A stretch of DNA of 64,000 bases from an uncultured Alphaproteobacteria bacterium (GTDB taxonomy: Bacteria > Pseudomonadota > Alphaproteobacteria > HIMB59 > GCA-002718135): contig CACDIK010000002.1 of NCBI GenBank assembly GCA_902553005.1, forward strand, positions 26,192-90,191, read 5' to 3'. Made by a program: the position numbers and the translations under genes. The number at the start of each line of letters is the position of its first letter. Position 1 is the stretch's first letter. This document shows positions 823-14,307 of this stretch, piece after piece. The notes beneath the pieces are model-generated. The model was not told the DNA's origin. It saw only the letters and a program-made list of their open reading frames with translations, and searched no databases.

Positions 823-2354
823 TGATTTTAATAATAAAGAAAATATTATTTATATTTATAACCTCTAAGTTCAATGCAAAAAAAAATTTATCTTTTTTAG
901 ATTTAAACTTTAAAAAAATAGATTTTACAAATCACGATAAAATAAAATCATTTATTTTTAAAGAAAATTTTTATACTTACAAAAATAAAAATATTCATAG
1001 TTTTGATTTTTTAAATTTCTCAAATAAACTTGGTGGTAAAATAGGTATAAATTTGTCTAAAAAAGCAATCTTTGGGTGGCATAAACTAAACAAAAATAAG
1101 TTAGGCTTTCCTTGGATAGAAGATCTATCATCTAAAAGACTAATAAATCTTTTGTATAACTATGAATATATAAATTCTGCTTCAAAAGAAGGTGACAAGA
1201 AAAAGTTAGATTTTATAATCTATTTTCATATTCAAAGAATTTTATTTGATTTCAACTCAAAAAAAATATCTGAATTTACTTCGTATGATTTAAAAGCATA
1301 TTTGTTATCTTGCTCACTCCTAAAAAAAATTAATGAAACAGATATTGATTATATAAAATATATTGTTGATAACCAAATTGATAAAATTGGTATGCATAAA
1401 AGTTATAATCTCTTGGAGCATTCTAAGTTTATAAATAATCTTAGTGAAATAAAAAATATTTTACTTTTTTCTAAATCAAATAAATCAAATGTTTTTGATG
1501 AAGTAATTCTTAAAATGACATCAATATTGAATGAATATTTTCATTTAGATGGCTCACTAGCTCTATTTAATGGTACTAATAATGTTTATACAATCAATAT
1601 CTACAAATCTTTAAACAAAGAGAGTTATTTAAAAAAAAGAGAGTTTTCAAATATTAATAATGGAATTGCATTTTACTCAGATAAAAATAAAAAAATATTT
1701 TTTGATGTAGTGCAACCTAATTCAGATATGATAAGTTCTAACTTAAGTGCGGGAACTTTATCACTTGAATTGAGTGGTTTTGGAGAGAAAATAGTTACAA
1801 ATTGTGGTGCCTCAGAAAGTTATGGTAAAAATCCAGAATATTTAAGATACAGTGCAGCTCATTCTACTATTATTCTACAAAACACTAATATTAGTGAAAT
1901 AAAGGAAGACAACCCACATATTAAATTTCCCCAATCAGTAGTCTTTAGAAAGGAGACTAACGGTCAAGAAGAAATATTTGAGGGGTCACATAATGGATAT
2001 TTAAAAAAATTTAATAAAATATTAAAAAGAAAATTAATTATTTATAAAAATAAAAATAAATTAAAGGGAGAAGATAGCTTTATTTCTTATAAAAATCTCC
2101 GTAATAGATTGATTTACCATATAAGATTTCACCTAGCCAATGAAATGATTTTAAATTTTACAAATAATAAAAAAAATATAATTTTAAAAACAAAAATGAA
2201 CAATATATGGCTGTTTAAAAGTAATACTGAACTTATAATAGAAGATAGTATATCGGTTGATAATAATATTACTAAACCTACTAAACAAATTGTAATTAAG
2301 GGTGTATTGTCAGATAAAAAGATTATAGAAAAATGGTCGTTAGAAAAAATCTAA
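822..2354 (+). CDS. Heparinase II/III family protein
   Basis: C-terminal heparinase II/III-like segment (GTLSLELSGFGEKIVTNCGAS...YLRYSAAHSTIIL); position between rsmB and purH. Confidence 0.75.
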   Translation: MILIIKKILFIFITSKFNAKKNLSFLDLNFKKIDFTNHDKIKSFIFKENFYTYKNKNIHSFDFLNFSNKLGGKIGINLSKKAIFGWHKLNKNKLGFPWIEDLSSKRLINLLYNYEYINSASKEGDKKKLDFIIYFHIQRILFDFNSKKISEFTSYDLKAYLLSCSLLKKINETDIDYIKYIVDNQIDKIGMHKSYNLLEHSKFINNLSEIKNILLFSKSNKSNVFDEVILKMTSILNEYFHLDGSLALFNGTNNVYTINIYKSLNKESYLKKREFSNINNGIAFYSDKNKKIFFDVVQPNSDMISSNLSAGTLSLELSGFGEKIVTNCGASESYGKNPEYLRYSAAHSTIILQNTNISEIKEDNPHIKFPQSVVFRKETNGQEEIFEGSHNGYLKKFNKILKRKLIIYKNKNKLKGEDSFISYKNLRNRLIYHIRFHLANEMILNFTNNKKNIILKTKMNNIWLFKSNTELIIEDSISVDNNITKPTKQIVIKGVLSDKKIIEKWSLEKI

Positions 2355-2932
2355 AAAAAAAATTTGCTTTAATATCTGTATTTGATAAAAAAAATTTAAA
2401 GTATCTCTGCTCAAACTTGAGTAAATTTAATTACAATTTTATGTCCAGTGGTTCTACGGGAAATAAAATTCGTGAATTAGGATTTAAATGTAAAGATATT
2501 TCAAAAATGACAAATTCTAAAGAAATGTTTGGAGGTAGGGTTAAAACATTAAATCCATTAATATATAGCTCACTACTTTACATTAGAGATGATAAAATTC
2601 ATAAAAAACAGTTTCAATTATTAAACATACCTGAAATAGATATTGTTGTAGTTAACTTATATCCTTTTAAAAAATATTTAAAAAAAAATAATTATGATCA
2701 AATTATTGAAATGATTGATATTGGTGGGCCAGGTTTATTACGAGCTGCCGGAAAAAACTTCAAATACATAACTCCAGTAGCTGATATTAAGGATTATAAA
2801 AAATTAGTAACAAATTTAACTAAGAATAATGGGGAAACAGACATTATTTTTAGAAAAAAAATGGCTCTTAAGGTTTTTAAACAATCAGCACAATATGACA
2901 AAATTATTTATAATTGGCTAAATGAAAATTAA
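2333..2932 (+). CDS. purH: PurH N-terminal (MGS-like IMP cyclohydrolase) domain as a separate ORF
   Basis: ALISVFDKKNL, MSSGSTGNKIRELG, MFGGRVKTLNPLIY, VVVNLYPFKKY, IDIGGPGLLRAAGKNF motifs. Confidence 0.88.
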   Translation: MVVRKNLKKKFALISVFDKKNLKYLCSNLSKFNYNFMSSGSTGNKIRELGFKCKDISKMTNSKEMFGGRVKTLNPLIYSSLLYIRDDKIHKKQFQLLNIPEIDIVVVNLYPFKKYLKKNNYDQIIEMIDIGGPGLLRAAGKNFKYITPVADIKDYKKLVTNLTKNNGETDIIFRKKMALKVFKQSAQYDKIIYNWLNEN

Positions 2933-3839
2933 AAATAGTAAAATCAAATTAAGATATGGAGAAAATCCAAATCAAATAGGCTACTTAATTAGTAATAAAA
3001 GAAATTCAATTTTTAGCTATCAAATTAGTGGGAAACAAATAAGTTATAATAATTTAATTGATATTGATAGTGGATTAAAATGTTTAAAAGAATTTCTTGA
3101 GCCTACTTCCATAATTCTGAAACATACTAATCCTTGTGGTATAGCGTCAGCAAAAAACATAGAGGCCGCTTTTAATAGATCTTATGAAAGTGATCCTAAA
3201 AGTGCTTTTGGAGGAATAGTTTTGCTAAATAGAAAAGTAACTTCTAAACTTGCTATGAAAATATACAAAAATTTTTACGAAATGATAGTTGCTTTAGATT
3301 TCAATCAAGATGCACTAAAAATTTTAAAAAAAAAGAAAAATTTAATTTTATTAAAAATACCCAATATAAAAAAAACGACCCTCGAATATAGATCAACTTT
3401 ATTTGGTGATCTTTATCAAACAACAGATTTAAACCCAATTAATAGAAAGTTTTTAACCTTAGTTTCAAGAAAGAAAGGGTCAACAAAAACAATTAATGAT
3501 TTAATTTTTTCACTTAAAGTTGCAAAACACTTAAAATCAAACGCTATTGTTTTATCCAGAAACAAACAAACTCTAGGTTTGGGTCATGGTCATACAAACA
3601 GAGTAGATGCATTATATTATGCTATTAAAAATATGAATAAATATTTTAAAAAAGGTAATTTCGTTTGTGCTTCAGACGGTTTTTTTCCTTTTGTAGACAG
3701 TATAAATTTACTAAATAGGAATGGATGCAATGCTGTAGCTCAGCCAGAAGGCTCGATAAATGATAAGGTAATAATTTCTTTTTCAATAAAAAATAAATTA
3801 TCATTATATTTCATAAAAAATAGACTCTTTAAACATTGA
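2922..3839 (+). CDS. purH: PurH C-terminal AICAR transformylase domain as a separate ORF
   Basis: LRYGENPNQ, ILKHTNPCGIA, SAFGGIV, ASDGFFPFVDS, AQPEGSINDKVI; overlaps upstream ORF by 11 nt in another frame. Confidence 0.88.
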   Translation: MKIKNSKIKLRYGENPNQIGYLISNKRNSIFSYQISGKQISYNNLIDIDSGLKCLKEFLEPTSIILKHTNPCGIASAKNIEAAFNRSYESDPKSAFGGIVLLNRKVTSKLAMKIYKNFYEMIVALDFNQDALKILKKKKNLILLKIPNIKKTTLEYRSTLFGDLYQTTDLNPINRKFLTLVSRKKGSTKTINDLIFSLKVAKHLKSNAIVLSRNKQTLGLGHGHTNRVDALYYAIKNMNKYFKKGNFVCASDGFFPFVDSINLLNRNGCNAVAQPEGSINDKVIISFSIKNKLSLYFIKNRLFKH

Positions 3840-5210: not shown

Positions 5211-5927
5211 TTGATCAATTTTATTTTTTTTTATGTGGATACTAAAAAGGGCTACTTGTCTGAAAGACACAGAGGTATTGAGCGCGAAAACATTGATCTG
5301 TTTATTAAATCTATAAGAAAATATCATATTGAATCAACAATTATTCACTGTACTGATAAATTTACAAAAACTTTTAAAGATGTTGATATAGTTCATAGAG
5401 AGAAATTTGATTTAAACCACATAATGTTTGGTAGAGTAAAATGTTTTTCAAGTTTTCCTATTAATAAATCATCAATTTATTTAGACCCTGATATGCTTGT
5501 AATGAAAACAATACCTGTAAAATTATTTGAAGAAAAGGCTGATGTTTTCTTATTAAAGAGAAGTTTTGATTTAACAGATATAATGCCAACTACATTTAGA
5601 AAACTAGAATTTCCAAATCACAAAAATAAAAATTTGGAAAATATCTATCCTTTTATTGGTTGTTTTGTTATCCTTAAGAAACAAAATTTCTGGTTAGAGT
5701 GTCTAAACTATTATGAAAATCTTAGTGAAAATTATAAAAATTGGTTTGGTGACCAAGAAATATTTAAAAGGTTAGTAGAGGAAAATAATTATAAATTTGC
5801 TTTTTTAGAAGAAAAAAATTTTGCATGCCCTCCACAGCATCTGAGTGGAAAAGATAGGCCATTTATAGTTCATTTTAAAGGTAAATATAATAAGGAATTA
5901 ATAAAAAAATATTTTGAATTTGTTTAA
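5211..5927 (+). CDS. GT-A-type nucleotide-sugar glycosyltransferase-like protein
   Basis: YLDPDMLVMKTIP (DxD-like) and FIGCFVILKK / WFGDQEIFKRLVEE architecture; TTG start. Confidence 0.55.
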   Translation: MINFIFFYVDTKKGYLSERHRGIERENIDLFIKSIRKYHIESTIIHCTDKFTKTFKDVDIVHREKFDLNHIMFGRVKCFSSFPINKSSIYLDPDMLVMKTIPVKLFEEKADVFLLKRSFDLTDIMPTTFRKLEFPNHKNKNLENIYPFIGCFVILKKQNFWLECLNYYENLSENYKNWFGDQEIFKRLVEENNYKFAFLEEKNFACPPQHLSGKDRPFIVHFKGKYNKELIKKYFEFV

Positions 5928-5966
5928 AAAATTAAATTAAATAATTAGGTACAAATTACAATTTAG

Positions 5967-6131
5967 TTAAAGAAAATATAATATAGATTTATTAAATTCA
6001 TTTTGTAAAACGTATATATTTGCAAGGTTTATATATGCTTTATTATTTTTACTATTTAACTCAATTGCATTTAAAAAAAGTGATTTTGCTTCATCAAAAT
6101 TACCTACTTCTTGGTTTTTTAACCCTATCAT
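5967..6131 (-). pseudogene. Relic of a TPR-repeat gene (54 aa)
   Basis: Reverse-strand translation MIGLKNQEVGNFDEAKSLFLNAIELNSKNNKAYINLANIYVLQNEFNKSILYFL is a TPR unit resembling residues near the N-terminus of the 6973..8595 product. Confidence 0.55.
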
Positions 6132-6219
6132 TAATTAATACTTTATAGTTATTTTTATTTTTTAACATTTTCTATTTACTAAAAAAATTTAAGATATATT
6201 TTCGTATGATAAATAAATC

Positions 6220-6816
6220 ATGTCTAATCCTAATCTTTTCTTCTCTACACCTGTTTGGGTTTCTACAATAAATAATTATAAAGAAACTAATGAAAAAATA
6301 TATCATTACATTAAGAATTTACAAAATGAGGATAACAAAGGAATAATTCGCAGTAATGTTAAAGGGTGGCACTCCAACAATTTTAATTTAGAAGATGAAA
6401 ATGTAATTGAATTTATTAATTTGATTTCTCCAAATATTAACAACGTTTTAAATGATATGAATTGGGATATATCTAAACAAAGAGCAAAGATATCAGCTAT
6501 GTGGGCAATAATTAATATAGGAGGAGCTTCCAATTCTAGACATCATCATGGAAATAGTGACATAAGTGCTGCATATTATGTAAGAGCACCTAAAAATTGT
6601 GGTGAGATTGTTTTTTATGATCCAAGACCCGCCCCAGTATACTTTCATCCATTATCAACAAAACCAAACAGTTTAAATGCTATGCAGAATGCCGTAAATC
6701 CAGTAGAAGGTGGTTTAGTACTCTTTCCTAGTTATTTAGATCATTCAGTAAATCCAAATCTCAGTAATGAAGAAAGAATTGTGATAAGTTTTAATCTAAA
6801 TTTAGTTAGGAAATAA
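6220..6816 (+). CDS. Putative 2OG-Fe(II) oxygenase (TIGR02466-like)
   Basis: FFSTPVW N-terminus, SRHHHGNSDISAAYYVRAP, GEIVFYDPRP, GGLVLFPSYLDHSVNPN, ERIVISFNL. Confidence 0.75.
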   Translation: MSNPNLFFSTPVWVSTINNYKETNEKIYHYIKNLQNEDNKGIIRSNVKGWHSNNFNLEDENVIEFINLISPNINNVLNDMNWDISKQRAKISAMWAIINIGGASNSRHHHGNSDISAAYYVRAPKNCGEIVFYDPRPAPVYFHPLSTKPNSLNAMQNAVNPVEGGLVLFPSYLDHSVNPNLSNEERIVISFNLNLVRK

Positions 6817-6972
6817 ATATTTTAAGATTAAAATCTTTTTTGATACAGGATTAAGATTTCCAAACATTAAAAGATAAGTAAAATTCGAGGATAATCCATC
6901 TTTTGTTTAAGCTAAAATATTGAATTATTTTTTAATTGATAGCATGTTAATAATAAATAAAAGAAAGTATTC

Positions 6973-8595
6973 ATGAATTATAAAAATCTAATTGAAAATG
7001 GAATTAAATATGCACAAAAAGGAAAGCTTATAGAAGCTGAGAATAATTTTAAGAAAGCTATTGAAAAAGATTCAAGTCTTACTGATTCATATATAAATTT
7101 GGCCAATGTATACATAATGCAAAGAAGAGTTGAAGAGGCAATTAATTTATTAAAGACTTACTTAAAAGATATATCTTTTAATCAAAATATCATTGGTCAT
7201 TTTTGGAAAATTAGCCAAAATTTTAATAGAGAAGAAAAGTTCTTTGAAATAATTAGTTCCTATGAAGATTCAAAAACTCTGAATAAAAAAGAATTGGCTT
7301 ACATATATTATATACATGGAAGATATTGTGCCAAATTAAATGACATTGAATTGTCAATTAAATATTTTAAGAAGTCTATATTTTTTGATGAATTGTTTAC
7401 GGATAGTTACATCAATCTTGTAGACTGGTTAGAAAGAATAAATGAAATTTCACAAGCAAACTTATATTTAAATAAGTTTAATAATGTAGTAAAAAAAATT
7501 GATTATAAAATAAAGTTTTTTGAAGCATTATTATTGTCAAGAGTAAAAAAATTTAAAGCATCTGAAAATATTCTAAATAAATATAAATTAGAAAAATATT
7601 TCGAGAAAGATAAATATTATTACATTAAACTATTAAATCTTAAATCGAAAAATAATGAAAGGTTAAGAAATTTTTCAATAGCTTATAATTCAATTGTGAA
7701 AAGAAATTTATTTTTATCTAACTTAGAAGAAAATCAAAAAATTGATAGAGGTGATATTAATCAAACCATACAAAATTATAAAAAAGTTTACACAAAACAT
7801 AATAAACATTTTGATATAAATAAATTAAAAATAGGTAAAAAAATTGACCTCGTTTTTTTAATTGGATTTCCAAGATCAGGAACTACATTACTAGATACTA
7901 TATTGCGTACTCATTCAAAAACACTTGTTTTAGAGGAGGAAATTTATCTTGAAAATACAAGAAATTATTACTTTACTTCTAAAAATAATAGACTTGACGC
8001 AATAAAAAATATTTCACTAGAAGAAGTAATAAATTTGCGCAAACATTATTTTGATCAAATAAATATTGATTATAAAAATATAATAACTGTAATTGACAAA
8101 CTACCTCTTACAATTACAGAATTGGGATTTGTAAAAAAAATTTTTCCAGATGCTAAAATAATTCTAGCATTAAGACATCCATGTGATGTAGTTATAAGCT
8201 GTTTTTTTAGCTCTTTCAAAATGAATAGGGCGATGATTAATTTTTTGAGTATTAAAAACACAGTAGACTTTTATAATAAAGTATTAGATCTATTCGAATT
8301 TTATGAGAATGAGTTAGATCTTGAAATTATAAAAATAAAATATGAAGATATTGTCTTCGATTTTGAAAATGAAACAAAAAAATTATTTAAATTTTTAAAT
8401 CTTGAGTATGAGGAAGATATTAATAAATTTTATGAAACTGCTCAAAGTAGAAAAATGATATCAACACCAAGTTACTCACAAGTAACTAGCCCTATATATT
8501 CAAGTTCTATTGATAGATGGAAAAATTATGAATCGTTAGTTAAAATTGAAAAACCGTTAAGAAAATGGATAAAAAGACTGAATTATTTAAACTGA
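6973..8595 (+). CDS. TPR-repeat sulfotransferase
   Basis: N-terminal TPRs (KGKLIEAENNFKKAIEKDSSLTDSYINLANVYI) plus PAPS loop FLIGFPRSGTTLLDTILRTH and ALRHPCDVVISCF. Confidence 0.85.
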   Translation: MNYKNLIENGIKYAQKGKLIEAENNFKKAIEKDSSLTDSYINLANVYIMQRRVEEAINLLKTYLKDISFNQNIIGHFWKISQNFNREEKFFEIISSYEDSKTLNKKELAYIYYIHGRYCAKLNDIELSIKYFKKSIFFDELFTDSYINLVDWLERINEISQANLYLNKFNNVVKKIDYKIKFFEALLLSRVKKFKASENILNKYKLEKYFEKDKYYYIKLLNLKSKNNERLRNFSIAYNSIVKRNLFLSNLEENQKIDRGDINQTIQNYKKVYTKHNKHFDINKLKIGKKIDLVFLIGFPRSGTTLLDTILRTHSKTLVLEEEIYLENTRNYYFTSKNNRLDAIKNISLEEVINLRKHYFDQINIDYKNIITVIDKLPLTITELGFVKKIFPDAKIILALRHPCDVVISCFFSSFKMNRAMINFLSIKNTVDFYNKVLDLFEFYENELDLEIIKIKYEDIVFDFENETKKLFKFLNLEYEEDINKFYETAQSRKMISTPSYSQVTSPIYSSSIDRWKNYESLVKIEKPLRKWIKRLNYLN

Positions 8596-8643
8596 AATTT
8601 CCATTTGGGTAAGTGAAACTTTTGAAACTAACCCGCTCAATAT

Positions 8644-8695
8644 TTGGAGCGGGCGAAGGGTTTCGAACCCTCGACTTCAACCTTGGCAAGGTTGC
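8644..8695 (-). repeat. Truncated direct-repeat copy of the 3' part of tRNA-Gly(GCC) (att-like)
   Basis: 52 bp matching 9929-9980 with one mismatch (gggtttcg vs gggattcg); identity ends abruptly at ggttgc. Confidence 0.88.
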
Positions 8696-8770
8696 CTAAT
8701 AGAAATAATTTGTAATTTCCTTCAAATTATGTGAAATAATTTTAAAACAAGTTTAGTTTTTGTAATCGAA

Positions 8771-8793
8771 GTGTCCCCCATATGTCCCCCAAA
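8771..8793 (-). promoter_or_regulatory. Paired motif gtgtcccccatatgtcccccaaa (possible integrase arm-binding site)
   Basis: Two TGTCCCC units 10 bp apart; near-identical motif at 9875-9893. Confidence 0.4.
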
Positions 8794-8885
8794 AGAGAGA
8801 TCTTTGAGCTATTGAAGGCAACAATTCTGAAAGGCAACAGAGAGGCAAATTCTTATTTTTTTATAATCATACTTTGTCCTGATTA

Positions 8886-9713
8886 CTAAATATAATTAAA
8901 ATGCTTCATTAACGTTTTTAAATTATTTTCTATAAGCCCAAGCTTTGTTTTTGATAAAATATCTTTCCATTGATTTGATGTTCCGGATCTGAAAAATCTT
9001 GAATGTTCTGAAGATTCATCAAAACCATATTTATTTTCTATTTTTTTAAGATTATTAAAATTAGTATTTTCTATTGTTTGATCAATGTCTGCGTCACTTA
9101 AATTGAGCTTTATTCTGTGCGTTTTATTTAAGAATTCTATAACTTTAATAACTACTTCCTTTATATTTACCTTTAAGTCTTCATACCTAATAATTAATCT
9201 GGGTACAGTTTTATAATTTAACCATGATAAAACATTAAGCTCCCAAGTAGAAATTAGTTCATAAGCACCATTTGTATTAATTATGTTTTTTTTTTCAAAA
9301 AGAAGCTCATTAATTATTTTATCTAAACTTTTGCCGCTAAAATTTTTAAAAGAAATGACCACATCCCTTGGGTCTCTTATAATATAAATAAAACCTGCAT
9401 TTACAGTTTCATTTGTAAATTTTTTATGTCTAACACTATGGGTTTTAAATATATTTAAGTGATTTGATTTCTTATTTAGTATTTTTTGACAATCAATAAT
9501 ATTTTCTGATACCCAGTCAAAATGCAAAACATTGTTGTCAGAATAGATTTTATTTTCAAATTCATCAAAGTTTTTTTTAATTGACAATAATGGTATTGAC
9601 TTTAAGGTTTTTAGATTAAACTCTTTATCAAAATTATAAAGGTTTGAAATTATAGCTCTCATCCATGTATTGCCAGATTTAGGATATGAAGCCAAAAAAA
9701 TATTTTTAAACAC
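8886..9713 (-). CDS. Sulfotransferase (Sulfotransfer_1-like)
   Basis: ASYPKSGNTWMRAI PAPS loop, IIRDPRDVVISF, and FRSGTSNQWKDIL C-terminal motif. Confidence 0.85.
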   Translation of the reverse strand: MFKNIFLASYPKSGNTWMRAIISNLYNFDKEFNLKTLKSIPLLSIKKNFDEFENKIYSDNNVLHFDWVSENIIDCQKILNKKSNHLNIFKTHSVRHKKFTNETVNAGFIYIIRDPRDVVISFKNFSGKSLDKIINELLFEKKNIINTNGAYELISTWELNVLSWLNYKTVPRLIIRYEDLKVNIKEVVIKVIEFLNKTHRIKLNLSDADIDQTIENTNFNNLKKIENKYGFDESSEHSRFFRSGTSNQWKDILSKTKLGLIENNLKTLMKHFNYI

Positions 9714-9874
9714 TTAAAATATTTAGGAAGAAATTTCTAAATAAAAATTTCAAATTTAAATATTTATTTTTTTTAATAAATATAATTACTAATTTTAAAA
9801 ATTTATATCTGGTAATGAAATTAATTATTATATTTTGTTTAAAATCAAGGTGTTGTATTATTTTGATATATGGA

Positions 9875-9893
9875 GTGTCCCCCAATTGTCCCC
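9875..9893 (-). promoter_or_regulatory. Paired motif gtgtcccccaattgtcccc (possible integrase arm-binding site)
   Basis: Same architecture and orientation as 8771-8793. Confidence 0.4.
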
Positions 9894-9929
9894 GGAGATT
9901 TTAAAATAATATGAATTTAGTATATTTGT

Positions 9930-10004
9930 TGGAGCGGGCGAAGGGATTCGAACCCTCGACTTCAACCTTGGCAAGGTTGCGCTCTACCCCTGAGCTACGC
10001 CCGC
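9930..10004 (-). tRNA. tRNA-Gly(GCC), CCA encoded
   Basis: Reverse complement GCGGGCGTAGCTCAGGGGTAGAGCGCAACCTTGCCAAGGTTGAAGTCGAGGGTTCGAATCCCTTCGCCCGCTCCA: 7-bp acceptor stem, D, anticodon (GCC) and T arms. Confidence 0.95.
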
Positions 10005-10058: not shown

Positions 10059-10877
10059 TTATTTAAATCTTCTTCTGTAGACAATATCAACAAGTAACAT
10101 ATGAGGAAGCGTTAAAGCAGCGAGTCCAATGAAAATTACTTTTAATATCGACTCATATAATGATAAATTTTGGACTAAATAATAAACAATTAATAAACCT
10201 CCAATCCAAGAAATTACTGTAAAAATTATTGTGGAGTAAATAACAAAGTATTTATTTTGTAAATTTAAATAAATATTTTTAATCAGATGTTTTAAATGTT
10301 TGTAAGTGTGAAAAAAACAGAAATATATAGCGAAGCTTAGTAATGGATCGAAAAAATAAAAAATTAATAAAAGAAATATAATCTCAATAATTCCTTTTCG
10401 TAATTTCTTTTCAAAGAAAGAGAGATAAACAAAATATATTATAGATAATAATGTTAAAAAATATGGGATGAAAAAAAATTTTTGGATTGAGTAAATATTA
10501 TTATTTGTCAGATATTCAAATATCAAAAAAGATTGATCTTCGTTGAAAAATATTATTCCAAAAATAATAGTCATTCCATAAGTAAAGCTTATAGAATACT
10601 TGTATTTATTTATTTTAAAATTTGTCCAATCACATAATCCAAAATGGGCAATAGTCATTATAATAAAAATCGTTAATGAAATAATAGGAAAATATAACCA
10701 AAATAAAATGACTAGAAAAAATAAAATTAGGTAGTAAAATAAAAATTGTAGAAATTGAATTCTGTTATTAAAACCTACTAAAGAAGCAACAGCACCATCA
10801 AATGAACCATGTGGAAGACCAATGAAAAAAATTAATAAAAAGGAAATAATATTTAAAATTGTTAGGTCTGCTAACAT
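10059..10877 (-). CDS. blh: Brp/Blh family beta-carotene 15,15'-dioxygenase
   Basis: GLPHGSFDGAV, AHFGLCDW, FCFFHTYKHLKHL, LPHMLLVD motifs; last gene of the crt cluster. Confidence 0.88.
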   Translation of the reverse strand: MLADLTILNIISFLLIFFIGLPHGSFDGAVASLVGFNNRIQFLQFLFYYLILFFLVILFWLYFPIISLTIFIIMTIAHFGLCDWTNFKINKYKYSISFTYGMTIIFGIIFFNEDQSFLIFEYLTNNNIYSIQKFFFIPYFLTLLSIIYFVYLSFFEKKLRKGIIEIIFLLLIFYFFDPLLSFAIYFCFFHTYKHLKHLIKNIYLNLQNKYFVIYSTIIFTVISWIGGLLIVYYLVQNLSLYESILKVIFIGLAALTLPHMLLVDIVYRRRFK

Positions 10878-10878
10878 A

Positions 10879-11961
10879 TCATTTAAATAACTCTTTTATA
10901 AAAGGAAGCTTGGGCATGCTATTTATAATTTTTAACTTAGTTAATAAATTCGATTCACCCATCATAAAACTTTGGAATTCTTTTCCATTTAGATTAGATG
11001 CGAGTTTTATAAATGACCTTCCATCTTCTCTATTATTTTTTAAAAAATTAATAAAAACTTTATCCATTTTTCTTTCTAAAAAATTATGTATATTTACATA
11101 ATTGTTCTTTGAATTTTTTAACAATTGAATTTGTTTTATAAGAAATGAAAAAGCATATCCAGTAGAGGGTTTGCAAGCACCTCCTCTAATACCAATATTG
11201 AAGATTTTAGAATTAACTGATTTTTTTTCCCCTGCAAAAAACATTGGTATTACCCCTTTTTCTGAACTCTGTTCTTTAAAATTATTAATATTATTTTTCT
11301 TTAAGTAATCATTTATTCTTTCCCTATACCAGGAACTGTGAAAGACATCTTTTGAAAAGACCGTCGATTCAACAAGCGCTTTATTGTGACTAAATGGTAG
11401 GATGTATATAAAATGCAAAATATTATTTTCTTCCGTAAAGTGCATCAAGGTTAATTTATCTTCATTAAAAGTATTATCTGCCACGGTAATATGAATTCCA
11501 AAAAAATGTTGTAATAATTCATCTTTTTTTTCTTTTGCTGATCGTGAATCATATATTTTTTCAGCGTAATATATTTTATCATCAGTAGTGATTATTTTAA
11601 AATAATTTTTTTCAGGAAAATATTGGACAACTTGTTTGTTTATAATTTTTAAATTATTTTTTGTTTCTAGGCAAAATTTTTTCCAAGTTTTAAAACTAAT
11701 GACACAGTAAGGTTTATCCAAACTTGTATGTGTTACATTGGTATTTTTGTTGCCAATACTCCATTTGTACCATTTTTTTTCAATAATTTTTTCAAATGGC
11801 TTCATCCAATCTGTTAACCAAAAACCAAAAATATTATCTCTTTTGTTTGTATCTTCACTTTCAAATGCAATAATTTCGTTAAAACTATCTCCGTAAAGAA
11901 TTTTATTTACAGCTAAACCACTAGGGCCTAACCCAATTATAGCAGCTTTATAAATTTTCAT
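10879..11961 (-). CDS. crtY: Lycopene beta-cyclase
   Basis: Nucleotide-binding IIGLGPSGLAVNKIL, NIGIRGGACKPSTGYAF; crt operon position. Confidence 0.88.
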   Translation of the reverse strand: MKIYKAAIIGLGPSGLAVNKILYGDSFNEIIAFESEDTNKRDNIFGFWLTDWMKPFEKIIEKKWYKWSIGNKNTNVTHTSLDKPYCVISFKTWKKFCLETKNNLKIINKQVVQYFPEKNYFKIITTDDKIYYAEKIYDSRSAKEKKDELLQHFFGIHITVADNTFNEDKLTLMHFTEENNILHFIYILPFSHNKALVESTVFSKDVFHSSWYRERINDYLKKNNINNFKEQSSEKGVIPMFFAGEKKSVNSKIFNIGIRGGACKPSTGYAFSFLIKQIQLLKNSKNNYVNIHNFLERKMDKVFINFLKNNREDGRSFIKLASNLNGKEFQSFMMGESNLLTKLKIINSMPKLPFIKELFK

Positions 11962-12829
11962 TTGGGAGATTATCTCTAATTTTTTGATACTGATATTTCA
12001 TAAAAGGGATAAAAATAAAAAGTAAAATTGATTTAGCTGTAATTAAAGATTTCTCTAATAAGTTTAAATATACCCTTTCTCTTAAATATTTTTTTTTATT
12101 GGATTTTATCTTAATACCAATCCCTCTATAAATATTAGCCGCAATGAATATTCCTAGTCTTGTGGATGGTGGGATATACTTTAAACCAGCAAAACCATTT
12201 TTATAAAACATATCTGAAAGGACTATTACTTCATGAATTGCATTTGATATTCTTTCATCTTTTTCTGAGCTTTTGTTATGAAGATCAGTTAAATTTTCTA
12301 GTGATATATCAGGTATCCAATTAGCAGGTAAATATATTCTTTTCATTTTGGAATCTTCATAAACATCTCTAGCTATATTTGTTAGTTGCATTCCAATACC
12401 TAAATCAATTGCAGATTTTGCTGCTTTTTCATTTTTTACTCCTATAATTTTAGACATCATTAATCCGACAGTTCCGGCAACATGATAAGAGTATTTTATA
12501 AGTTCTTCCTTGTTTTGAATTCTTGTTTTTTTCTGATCCAAAATTAATCCCTCTATTAAGTCTATAAAAATTAAATTGTTAATTTCATTTTTTTGCAAAA
12601 AAATATTTACTTTATTATTTTTATTGGTCTTTATTTCTTCAATTGAATTTTTGAGATAGATAGTTTGATCTTTGTTGTGTTTATCAGCAATATCATCAAA
12701 ATATCTACAAATTGAATATAGAATACCAGCATTTTTTTTTGAACTTTTTGGTAAAAAAAAACTTGCCCAATAAAAACTTTTACCTTCTCTTTTAAGGTCA
12801 GTCGACGAATTTAGTTCTAAATCAATCAT
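11948..12829 (-). CDS. crtB: Phytoene synthase
   Basis: SFYWASFFLPK, YSICRYFDDIAD, GIGMQLTNIARDVYED, IYLPANW. Confidence 0.93.
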   Translation of the reverse strand: MIDLELNSSTDLKREGKSFYWASFFLPKSSKKNAGILYSICRYFDDIADKHNKDQTIYLKNSIEEIKTNKNNKVNIFLQKNEINNLIFIDLIEGLILDQKKTRIQNKEELIKYSYHVAGTVGLMMSKIIGVKNEKAAKSAIDLGIGMQLTNIARDVYEDSKMKRIYLPANWIPDISLENLTDLHNKSSEKDERISNAIHEVIVLSDMFYKNGFAGLKYIPPSTRLGIFIAANIYRGIGIKIKSNKKKYLRERVYLNLLEKSLITAKSILLFIFIPFMKYQYQKIRDNLPNENL

Positions 12830-12831
12830 TG

Positions 12832-14307
12832 TTATTTTAATTCAGATTTGATGATATTTTCAACAACTTTAGCTGAGGAAAGAACACCTGGTATTCCAGC
12901 CCCTGGATGTGAGCCTGCTGCAGAAAAATATAAATTTTTAATTTTTTTGTCTTTGTTGTGATATCTAAACCAAGCTGACTGTGTAAAAATTGGGGCTATA
13001 GAAAATCCTGCTCCGTGCATAGAATTGTAATCGTTTTTAAAATCTTTAGGGTTCATCCAAAAAACATCTGTAATACTCTTTTCTAAATCTGGCATAATTG
13101 TTTGTGATAATTCTTTAACTATCTTATTTTTAAGGTTTTCTGATTCAACATCCCAATCAATTTTGCCTTGTAAATTGGGTACTGGGCATAGAACATAAAA
13201 ACTATCACATCCTTCTGGAGCAAACGATTTATCAGTTGCGGTAGGCCTATGAATATATAAAGAAAAATCTTCAGATAATATTTTATTTTTAAATATATCA
13301 TGAAGTAAAGATTTAAATCTTTCAGTCATCCAAATAGTATGATGAGCAACTTTATGGTATTGTTTTTTCGTACCAAAGAAAAGAACAAAAAGCCCCATTG
13401 AATACAATAAGTTTTTTTCTTTTAATACAGGTCTTTTTAAATTTTGTTTTTTTAAAAGTTTAGAGTAAACCATGGGTGGATCAGCATTACAAACAACTAG
13501 ATCTATATTAGAAATCTCTTCATTGTTTGTTAATATTTTTGTTATCCTATTATTTTCCACAATAAATTCTTTTGCCTCTGTATTTGTTTTTATTTTAATA
13601 CCACAATCAATCATTAATTGTTTTAGTTCAGATACAATTTTACCAGTTCCGCCCATACAAAAAAATACGCCCCATTTTCTCTCTAAATAATGAATCAAAG
13701 CGTAAATAGATGTTGTTGTGTGTGGATCACCTCCAACTAAAAGTGGGTGAATTGAAAATGCTTTTCTAAGATATGGATTTTTTAGATAACTATTTACAAG
13801 TTGAGATACTGTGAAATAACTTTTTAAAATAATTAAATTAGGAATAACACCTAACATTTTAAAAAAAGAAATAAATGGTTTGTCAGCTAATTGTGTGAAC
13901 CCTACATCAAAAATTTTTTTTGATTGATTTAAGAGTTTAGAATATCCTTTGATGTCTCTATTATCATATTTGCTTATTTCATTATTTGTCTTTTCGATAG
14001 TAGAACAATAATCAAAAGTTTTACCATCATGAAAATAATATCTATACCAGGGCTCAAGAGGAACAAAACTCAAATAATCTTCTCTTTTTTTCCCAAATAG
14101 ACTAAATAATTCATCAAAAAGAAATGGTGCTGTTATAACTGTTGGTCCAGCATCATGTTTAAAACCATTCACTTCAAAAACTCTTGCTCTTCCTCCAAGC
14201 TCGTCTAGTTTTTCAATAATTGTTGTATCATAGCCTAATTTTTTTAGTCTTAGACTAATCGCAATACCTCCAAAACCACTTCCTATAACTACTGCTTTTT
14301 TTCCCAT
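12832..14307 (-). CDS. crtI: Phytoene desaturase
   Basis: VIGSGFGGIAISLRLKKLGYDTTIIEKLDELGGRARVFEVNGFKHDAGPTVIT; C-terminal FSAAGSHPGAGIPGVLSSAKV. Confidence 0.95.
   Translation of the reverse strand: MGKKAVVIGSGFGGIAISLRLKKLGYDTTIIEKLDELGGRARVFEVNGFKHDAGPTVITAPFLFDELFSLFGKKREDYLSFVPLEPWYRYYFHDGKTFDYCSTIEKTNNEISKYDNRDIKGYSKLLNQSKKIFDVGFTQLADKPFISFFKMLGVIPNLIILKSYFTVSQLVNSYLKNPYLRKAFSIHPLLVGGDPHTTTSIYALIHYLERKWGVFFCMGGTGKIVSELKQLMIDCGIKIKTNTEAKEFIVENNRITKILTNNEEISNIDLVVCNADPPMVYSKLLKKQNLKRPVLKEKNLLYSMGLFVLFFGTKKQYHKVAHHTIWMTERFKSLLHDIFKNKILSEDFSLYIHRPTATDKSFAPEGCDSFYVLCPVPNLQGKIDWDVESENLKNKIVKELSQTIMPDLEKSITDVFWMNPKDFKNDYNSMHGAGFSIAPIFTQSAWFRYHNKDKKIKNLYFSAAGSHPGAGIPGVLSSAKVVENIIKSELK

Follow-up and report, generated by a model that had tools for sequence, protein, structure and literature searches.

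How does a single sulfotransferase gene come to lie between two copies of the 3' end of a tRNA gene, with no recombinase beside it? The question is raised by the window, the 64,000-nucleotide stretch of DNA analyzed here (G+C 28%), which belongs to a 1.03 Mb, 57%-complete assembly of an uncultured alphaproteobacterium. The original prediction, made from the letters of the window, was a minimal element that is moved in trans by an integrase encoded elsewhere. Base composition and genome sizes suggest a placement in the HIMB59 (AEGEAN-169) order, going by its description in PMC10734472. Based on our analysis, the observation holds and represents a single instance of a more extensive system. We consider it likely that positions 8644-9980 represent a non-autonomous integrative gene cassette, moved in trans by an arm-specific integrase from another element.

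Anatomy of the window cassette

The cassette has a length of 1.285 kb and is bounded by two copies of the tRNA-Gly(GCC) 3' end (Table 1). The copies form a 52-bp direct repeat with 51 identical bases, and 51 of the 52 positions, including the encoded CCA, fall inside the tRNA gene while base 9929 is located just outside. The computed chance of a 52-mer match at a given position is ~1e-35 and no third copy exists anywhere in the window. The cassette is located downstream of the tRNA-Gly 3' end and the intact tRNA gene is found at its right end, as expected for tyrosine recombinase integration at the 3' end of a tRNA. Between the two cores of the window, the sulfotransferase is the sole gene and no integrase gene is present. 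The dimer TGTCCCC-N4-TGTCCCC is found inside each end on the same strand and at no other site of the window (0 expected, based on shuffles), and apart from the four heptamers of these dimers, the window contains no TGTCCCC. The repeat with one mismatch, the lone sulfotransferase without integrase and the paired motif in the same orientation had all been part of the original prediction and were confirmed.

Table 1. Features of the tRNA-Gly(GCC) cassette and its immediate surroundings, in window coordinates.
Feature	Position	Strand	Basis
Scar candidate, probably the eroded right end of an older GGAGCGT-arm-class cassette	8601..8643	+	Sequence resembles the class right end ...TAAGTGGAGCGTTTGAATCTAACCCGCTCAATATT
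Distal core, displaced tRNA-Gly 3' 51-52 bp (far attachment site)	8644..8695	+	51/52 match to 9929-9980; repeated core also seen at 54 further loci of the genus
Left cassette end CTAATAGAAATA..., following the distal core			
Left arm-type dimer TGTCCCC-N4-TGTCCCC, heptamers 11 bp apart	8772..8789	+	Left/right match test, 49 cassette clusters
Degenerate tRNA-Ser(TGA), relic of a tRNA-Ser and sulfotransferase pair	8795..8882 (approximate limits)	+	Alignment with intact tRNA-Ser of related cassettes and native locus
Sulfotransferase, 275 aa, only cargo gene	8886..9713	-	PF00685, E=2.6e-26
Right arm-type dimer TGTCCCC-N4-TGTCCCC	9876..9893	+	Left/right match test
Right cassette end ...TATATTTGT, adjoining the proximal core			
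Proximal core, within the intact tRNA gene	9929..9980	+	Repeat match
Intact tRNA-Gly(GCC), insertion site	9930..10004	-	ARAGORN; Rfam RF00005, 70.9 bits

An Rfam match to HPnc0260 scored under the cut-off, overlapped the tRNA and was dismissed. The right flank of the array (window 10059-14307) is conserved and carries retinal/carotenoid genes, namely a carotene dioxygenase, a lycopene cyclase, a phytoene synthase and a desaturase-like gene. On the other side, two overlapping reading frames of 199 and 305 aa at 2333-3839, which we take to be a purH-like gene, may result from a frameshift or a sequencing error.

tRNA-Gly arrays across the genus

All 102 genomes of the genus were searched with DNA of the tRNA and its crt/blh side, the respective regions were retrieved and their cores mapped. 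Many of these genomes contain additional copies of the 3' 52 bp. Out of 80 loci with an intact tRNA-Gly, including that of the window, 55 carry one to four tandem cassettes (none: 25 loci, one: 29, two: 20, three: 4, four: 2). The 89 cassettes have sizes of 0.48 to 13.8 kb with a median of 1.3 kb, and 57 of them are shorter than 2 kb. In a subgroup with ATTGC-type arms the core is shorter (31 bp), a sequence feature that suggests another crossover point within the same tRNA. When ca. 30 other tRNAs were inspected in each of two genomes, no such copies were detected within ~12 kb. A second site is tRNA-Gln(TTG), adjoining tRNA-Arg, with copies in G083; none were found in G110 and G117, where tRNA-Gln and tRNA-Arg are ~620 bp apart.

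We found 66 pairs of loci with a shared left context that leads to the intact tRNA in one member and to a cassette in its partner. Unoccupied tRNA-Gly sites in relatives, which would be expected if the original prediction held, are thus present, as is different cargo between the same repeat in many cassettes. A twin of the window cassette with 98.4% identity provides a direct example, with L050 representing the site before and L076 the site after. The family of the window cassette occurs in about 15 loci at array positions 1 to 4, and the order of the sulfotransferase cassette and a 580-bp cassette is reversed between genomes. In the best cases, identities of cassette and flank were 98.4 vs 85.6%, 99.4 vs 78.6% and 99.6 vs 85.4%. 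Occupied and unoccupied pairs, differing order and a 98.4% cassette beside a ~86% flank together indicate that cassettes move. Among all 130 comparable pairs, the cassette was less similar than the flank in 40 and more similar in 39, and many cassettes must therefore be old. G101 (L102) had been considered as a clean unoccupied site; its tRNA-adjacent bases resemble the right end of another cassette class and cleaner pairs were used instead.

Matched arm tags at cassette ends

A single type of heptamer pair is present inside the two ends of most cassettes, with the two heptamers 11 bp, or one DNA turn, apart, and the heptamer varies between cassettes. Using a permutation test on 49 sequence clusters, we found that left and right dimers match at the 11-bp spacing (z = 13.6; 0 of 10,000 permutations of the right ends) and that no left/right match exists at spacings of 8-10 and 12-15 bp. 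Sorted into classes, 61 cassettes carry the same class at both ends, 6 carry two classes and 22 of 89 have no assigned class at one or both ends, where the class table was drawn up after inspecting the ends and the permutation test with its clusters and spacing controls is the unbiased one. About 18 heptamers make up the tag classes. TGTCCCC, which the original prediction regarded as the end motif of the element, does mark the window cassette and is just one of these tags. Counted from the core inward, the left arm begins at 66-80 bp in most cases, and the right arm is usually found 40-65 bp ahead of the tRNA-proximal core; for the TGTCACA class, the left and right distances are about 55 and 85. 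Five loci (L052, L066, L072, L074 and L075) have TGTCCCG arms, other cargo and a common left end containing the 5' half of a tRNA-Ser. Judged by sequence, this shared end suggests cargo exchange behind one end module.

Integrases at the shared site

Intact lambda-type tyrosine integrases are located in the tRNA-Gly arrays of 9 genomes and N-terminal integrase fragments were found at the tRNA-proximal end in several others. Integrase fragments in GGAGCGT-class cassettes lend support to an origin by deletion from an integrative element; in the window cassette, the sulfotransferase is the only gene. The active-site residues of the array integrases align. A structural model of the TGTCACA-class integrase (AlphaFold, mean pLDDT 87.8, pTM 0.57) shows an N-terminal three-strand sheet and helix, and its best fold match in the PDB is full-length lambda integrase. 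Among units with TGTCACA arms, 6 contain an intact integrase and 5 do not. Integrases of this class are present in G018 and G110, among others, and the alternative-oxidase cassette L039_c1 has TGTCACA arms as well. Further, an integrase element (L069) and an integrase-less cassette (L065) share both TGTCGGA arms and a 24-bp end sequence that is identical in the two.

In case of the TGTCCCC tag, the 163 genomes of the order yielded no integrase with such arms. They contain the exact dimer in sulfotransferase-cassette regions only, and the reversed control pattern is found 0 times. The window's own 57%-complete genome yielded no member of the array integrase family. Movement in trans as originally predicted is therefore supported in part: an integrase-less element at tRNA-Gly, arm-type direct repeats and a site common to integrase-bearing elements are all present, with integrases located between the same cores, while a TGTCCCC-armed enzyme did not turn up in the order. 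Related integrases are found elsewhere, namely at tRNA-Leu (where a 61-bp repeat lies at a distance of 9.5 kb), next to tmRNA and in the vicinity of other tRNAs, and several of these integrases have their own 11-bp dimer upstream. One of them (L347, G064:C79) directly adjoins tmRNA and has its own dimer CCGAAGC, 11 bp apart.

Viral contigs contained no sulfotransferase relatives, no attP-like core and no relatives of the group-B integrase; for the group-A integrase, only distant relatives were found (~34% identity or less over full-length matches). Phage and plasmid collections gave matches at tRNA length only and never across a cassette. The window cassette, with its single cargo gene, also has none of the packaging or replication genes of a phage satellite and was not seen in virus collections. 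A search of IMG/VR with TGTCCCC-N4-TGTCCCC was discarded as evidence because a pattern with 14 fixed bases is not specific enough for a collection of that size.

Cargo and its origin

The sulfotransferase has relatives in 34 of the 102 genus genomes. Several genomes carry this sulfotransferase beside tRNA-Ser(TGA) and outside any such repeat, in what looks like the native locus. Native-type and cassette copies coexist in some genomes. The tRNA-Ser is intact in related cassettes and degenerate in the window cassette. Other cargo includes an alternative oxidase with a flavodoxin, DNA methylases, a McrB-like/NO VEIN protein and an MFS transporter, among others, and many cassette cargoes have no Pfam match. 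In L255 and L257 (about 5649-7348, reverse orientation), a sulfotransferase and degenerate tRNA-Gly-type cores are nested in a 70-bp duplication of tRNA-Gln(TTG). This arrangement looks like a tRNA-Gly cassette acquired by a tRNA-Gln element.

Proposed mechanism and alternatives

The anatomy of the arrays, combined with established knowledge about lambda-type integrases, points towards the following mechanism. A lambda-type tyrosine integrase, supplied by another element, would join the cassette core to the 3' part of tRNA-Gly(GCC), with its N-terminal arm-binding domain reading the heptamer pair inside both cassette ends. Joining would restore the tRNA, while its displaced 3' part would end up at the far end; each new cassette would thus land beside the tRNA and older ones would be pushed outward. 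As different cassettes carry different heptamers, they probably answer to different integrases. Some integrase-less cassettes may have arisen by deletion inside integrase-bearing elements, others by uptake of chromosomal genes; the window cassette would then have captured a tRNA-Ser and sulfotransferase pair. In its widest form, our proposal is a tRNA-based, integron-like system of many small integrase-less cassettes on one tRNA-Gly core, in which the end-matched arm tag (~18 heptamer classes, 11 bp apart) decides the helper integrase and turns one site into many independently addressable satellites. For this wider proposal, we find belief and doubt to be evenly balanced.

Alternatively, the cassettes may be cis-mobilizable elements that move by accretion and only along with an adjacent integrase element, with the arm tags irrelevant to single cassettes. 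Composites with mixed arms (L069, L042 and L113) and the sulfotransferase cassette nested in a tRNA-Gln element would fit such a history. We nevertheless consider it unlikely, since the arm class is the same at the two ends of most cassettes, and contexts that are otherwise alike differ by single cassettes.

Homologous recombination alone, acting on the 51-bp repeats and the conserved flanking genes, might also shuffle cassettes between cells, with the arms being relics and nothing mobile at present. The conserved right flanks, the common 51-bp core, the age of many cassettes relative to their flanks and the lack of a TGTCCCC-armed helper in the order would all agree with this. It does not readily account for insertions located precisely at the core in many different contexts, for arm dimers still matched at both ends or for intact integrases in 9 arrays, and it appears improbable to us; near-identical cassettes beside diverged flanks speak against it as well, although exchange inside the core could also explain them. 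Finally, the repeat might be due to chance or to a faulty assembly, with the sulfotransferase being an ordinary native gene. This idea, which could draw on the native-looking chromosomal locus beside tRNA-Ser, is hardly tenable given that dozens of independent assemblies contain the repeat along with many different cassettes, that unoccupied sites exist and that cassettes and flanks are discordant.

Relation to known systems

Under the preferred reading of a cassette moved in trans, the question remains which known elements it resembles. Like a cis-mobilizable element (CIME), the window cassette has attachment-site copies at both flanks and neither integrase nor transfer genes. The ssrA islands of Dehalococcoides are likewise tandem units bounded by RNA-gene 3'-end copies, with or without integration genes, and for those without, the authors suggest cis-mobilizable elements (PMC3146451). 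They differ in using a serine recombinase and a 20-bp repeat. In the present case, the integrases are tyrosine integrases of the lambda type, the core spans 51 bp, the cassettes are mostly the size of a gene and their matched arm dimers fall into many classes. Additive flexible genomic islands at tRNA-Lys of Methylophilaceae are described as having recurring tRNA 3'-end copies, sizes of 330 bp to 42 kb and mostly genes of unknown function (PMC10872708). The tRNA-Gly arrays are additive in the same sense, consisting of strain-variable tandem units between tRNA 3'-end copies, and in addition have matched arms and same-site integrases, whereas the available text of that report describes no arm-site code. 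Tycheposons, to which the original prediction compared the element, share the tRNA site, the tyrosine recombinase family, cargo genes and an occurrence in marine bacteria. However, according to the same text they are 4-200 kb in size and encode their own tyrosine recombinase, while the window cassette has none and is far shorter. The comparison has to be amended: the cassettes are closest to cis-mobilizable elements and additive islands and are no tycheposons.

Integron gene cassettes and CALINs represent known integrase-less arrays moved in trans (PMC11389934) and resemble the present system in their small tandem cassettes at one insertion point which lack their own integrase and are thought to be trans-moved. 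Here, the core is instead the 3' end of a tRNA and arm sites are present. Array integrases share fold, catalytic residues and the use of arm plus core sites with lambda-type integrases in general; the difference lies in the many arm specificities on one tRNA core and in most units being enzyme-less. In the literature searched, which included few subscription papers, we found no description of a matched, diversified arm-dimer code on one common core, and the main text of the HIMB59 island paper is silent on integrases and direct repeats.

With the arm tags, the question of which enzyme moves which cassette becomes testable, as an integrase should act on cassettes that share its tag and not on those with a different one. 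The system also represents a natural set of integrase/arm-site specificities on a common core. Gene content of open-ocean single-cell genomes is reported to differ from cell to cell (PMC12416821), and one tRNA gaining and losing gene-sized units would be a concrete vehicle for such variation. The units carry metabolic genes (alternative oxidase, sulfotransferase) as well as restriction-modification genes. The latter, of type I and type III-like kinds, are found in larger units at tRNA-Gly in L048, L063, L077 and L099, indicating that this site also collects defence genes.
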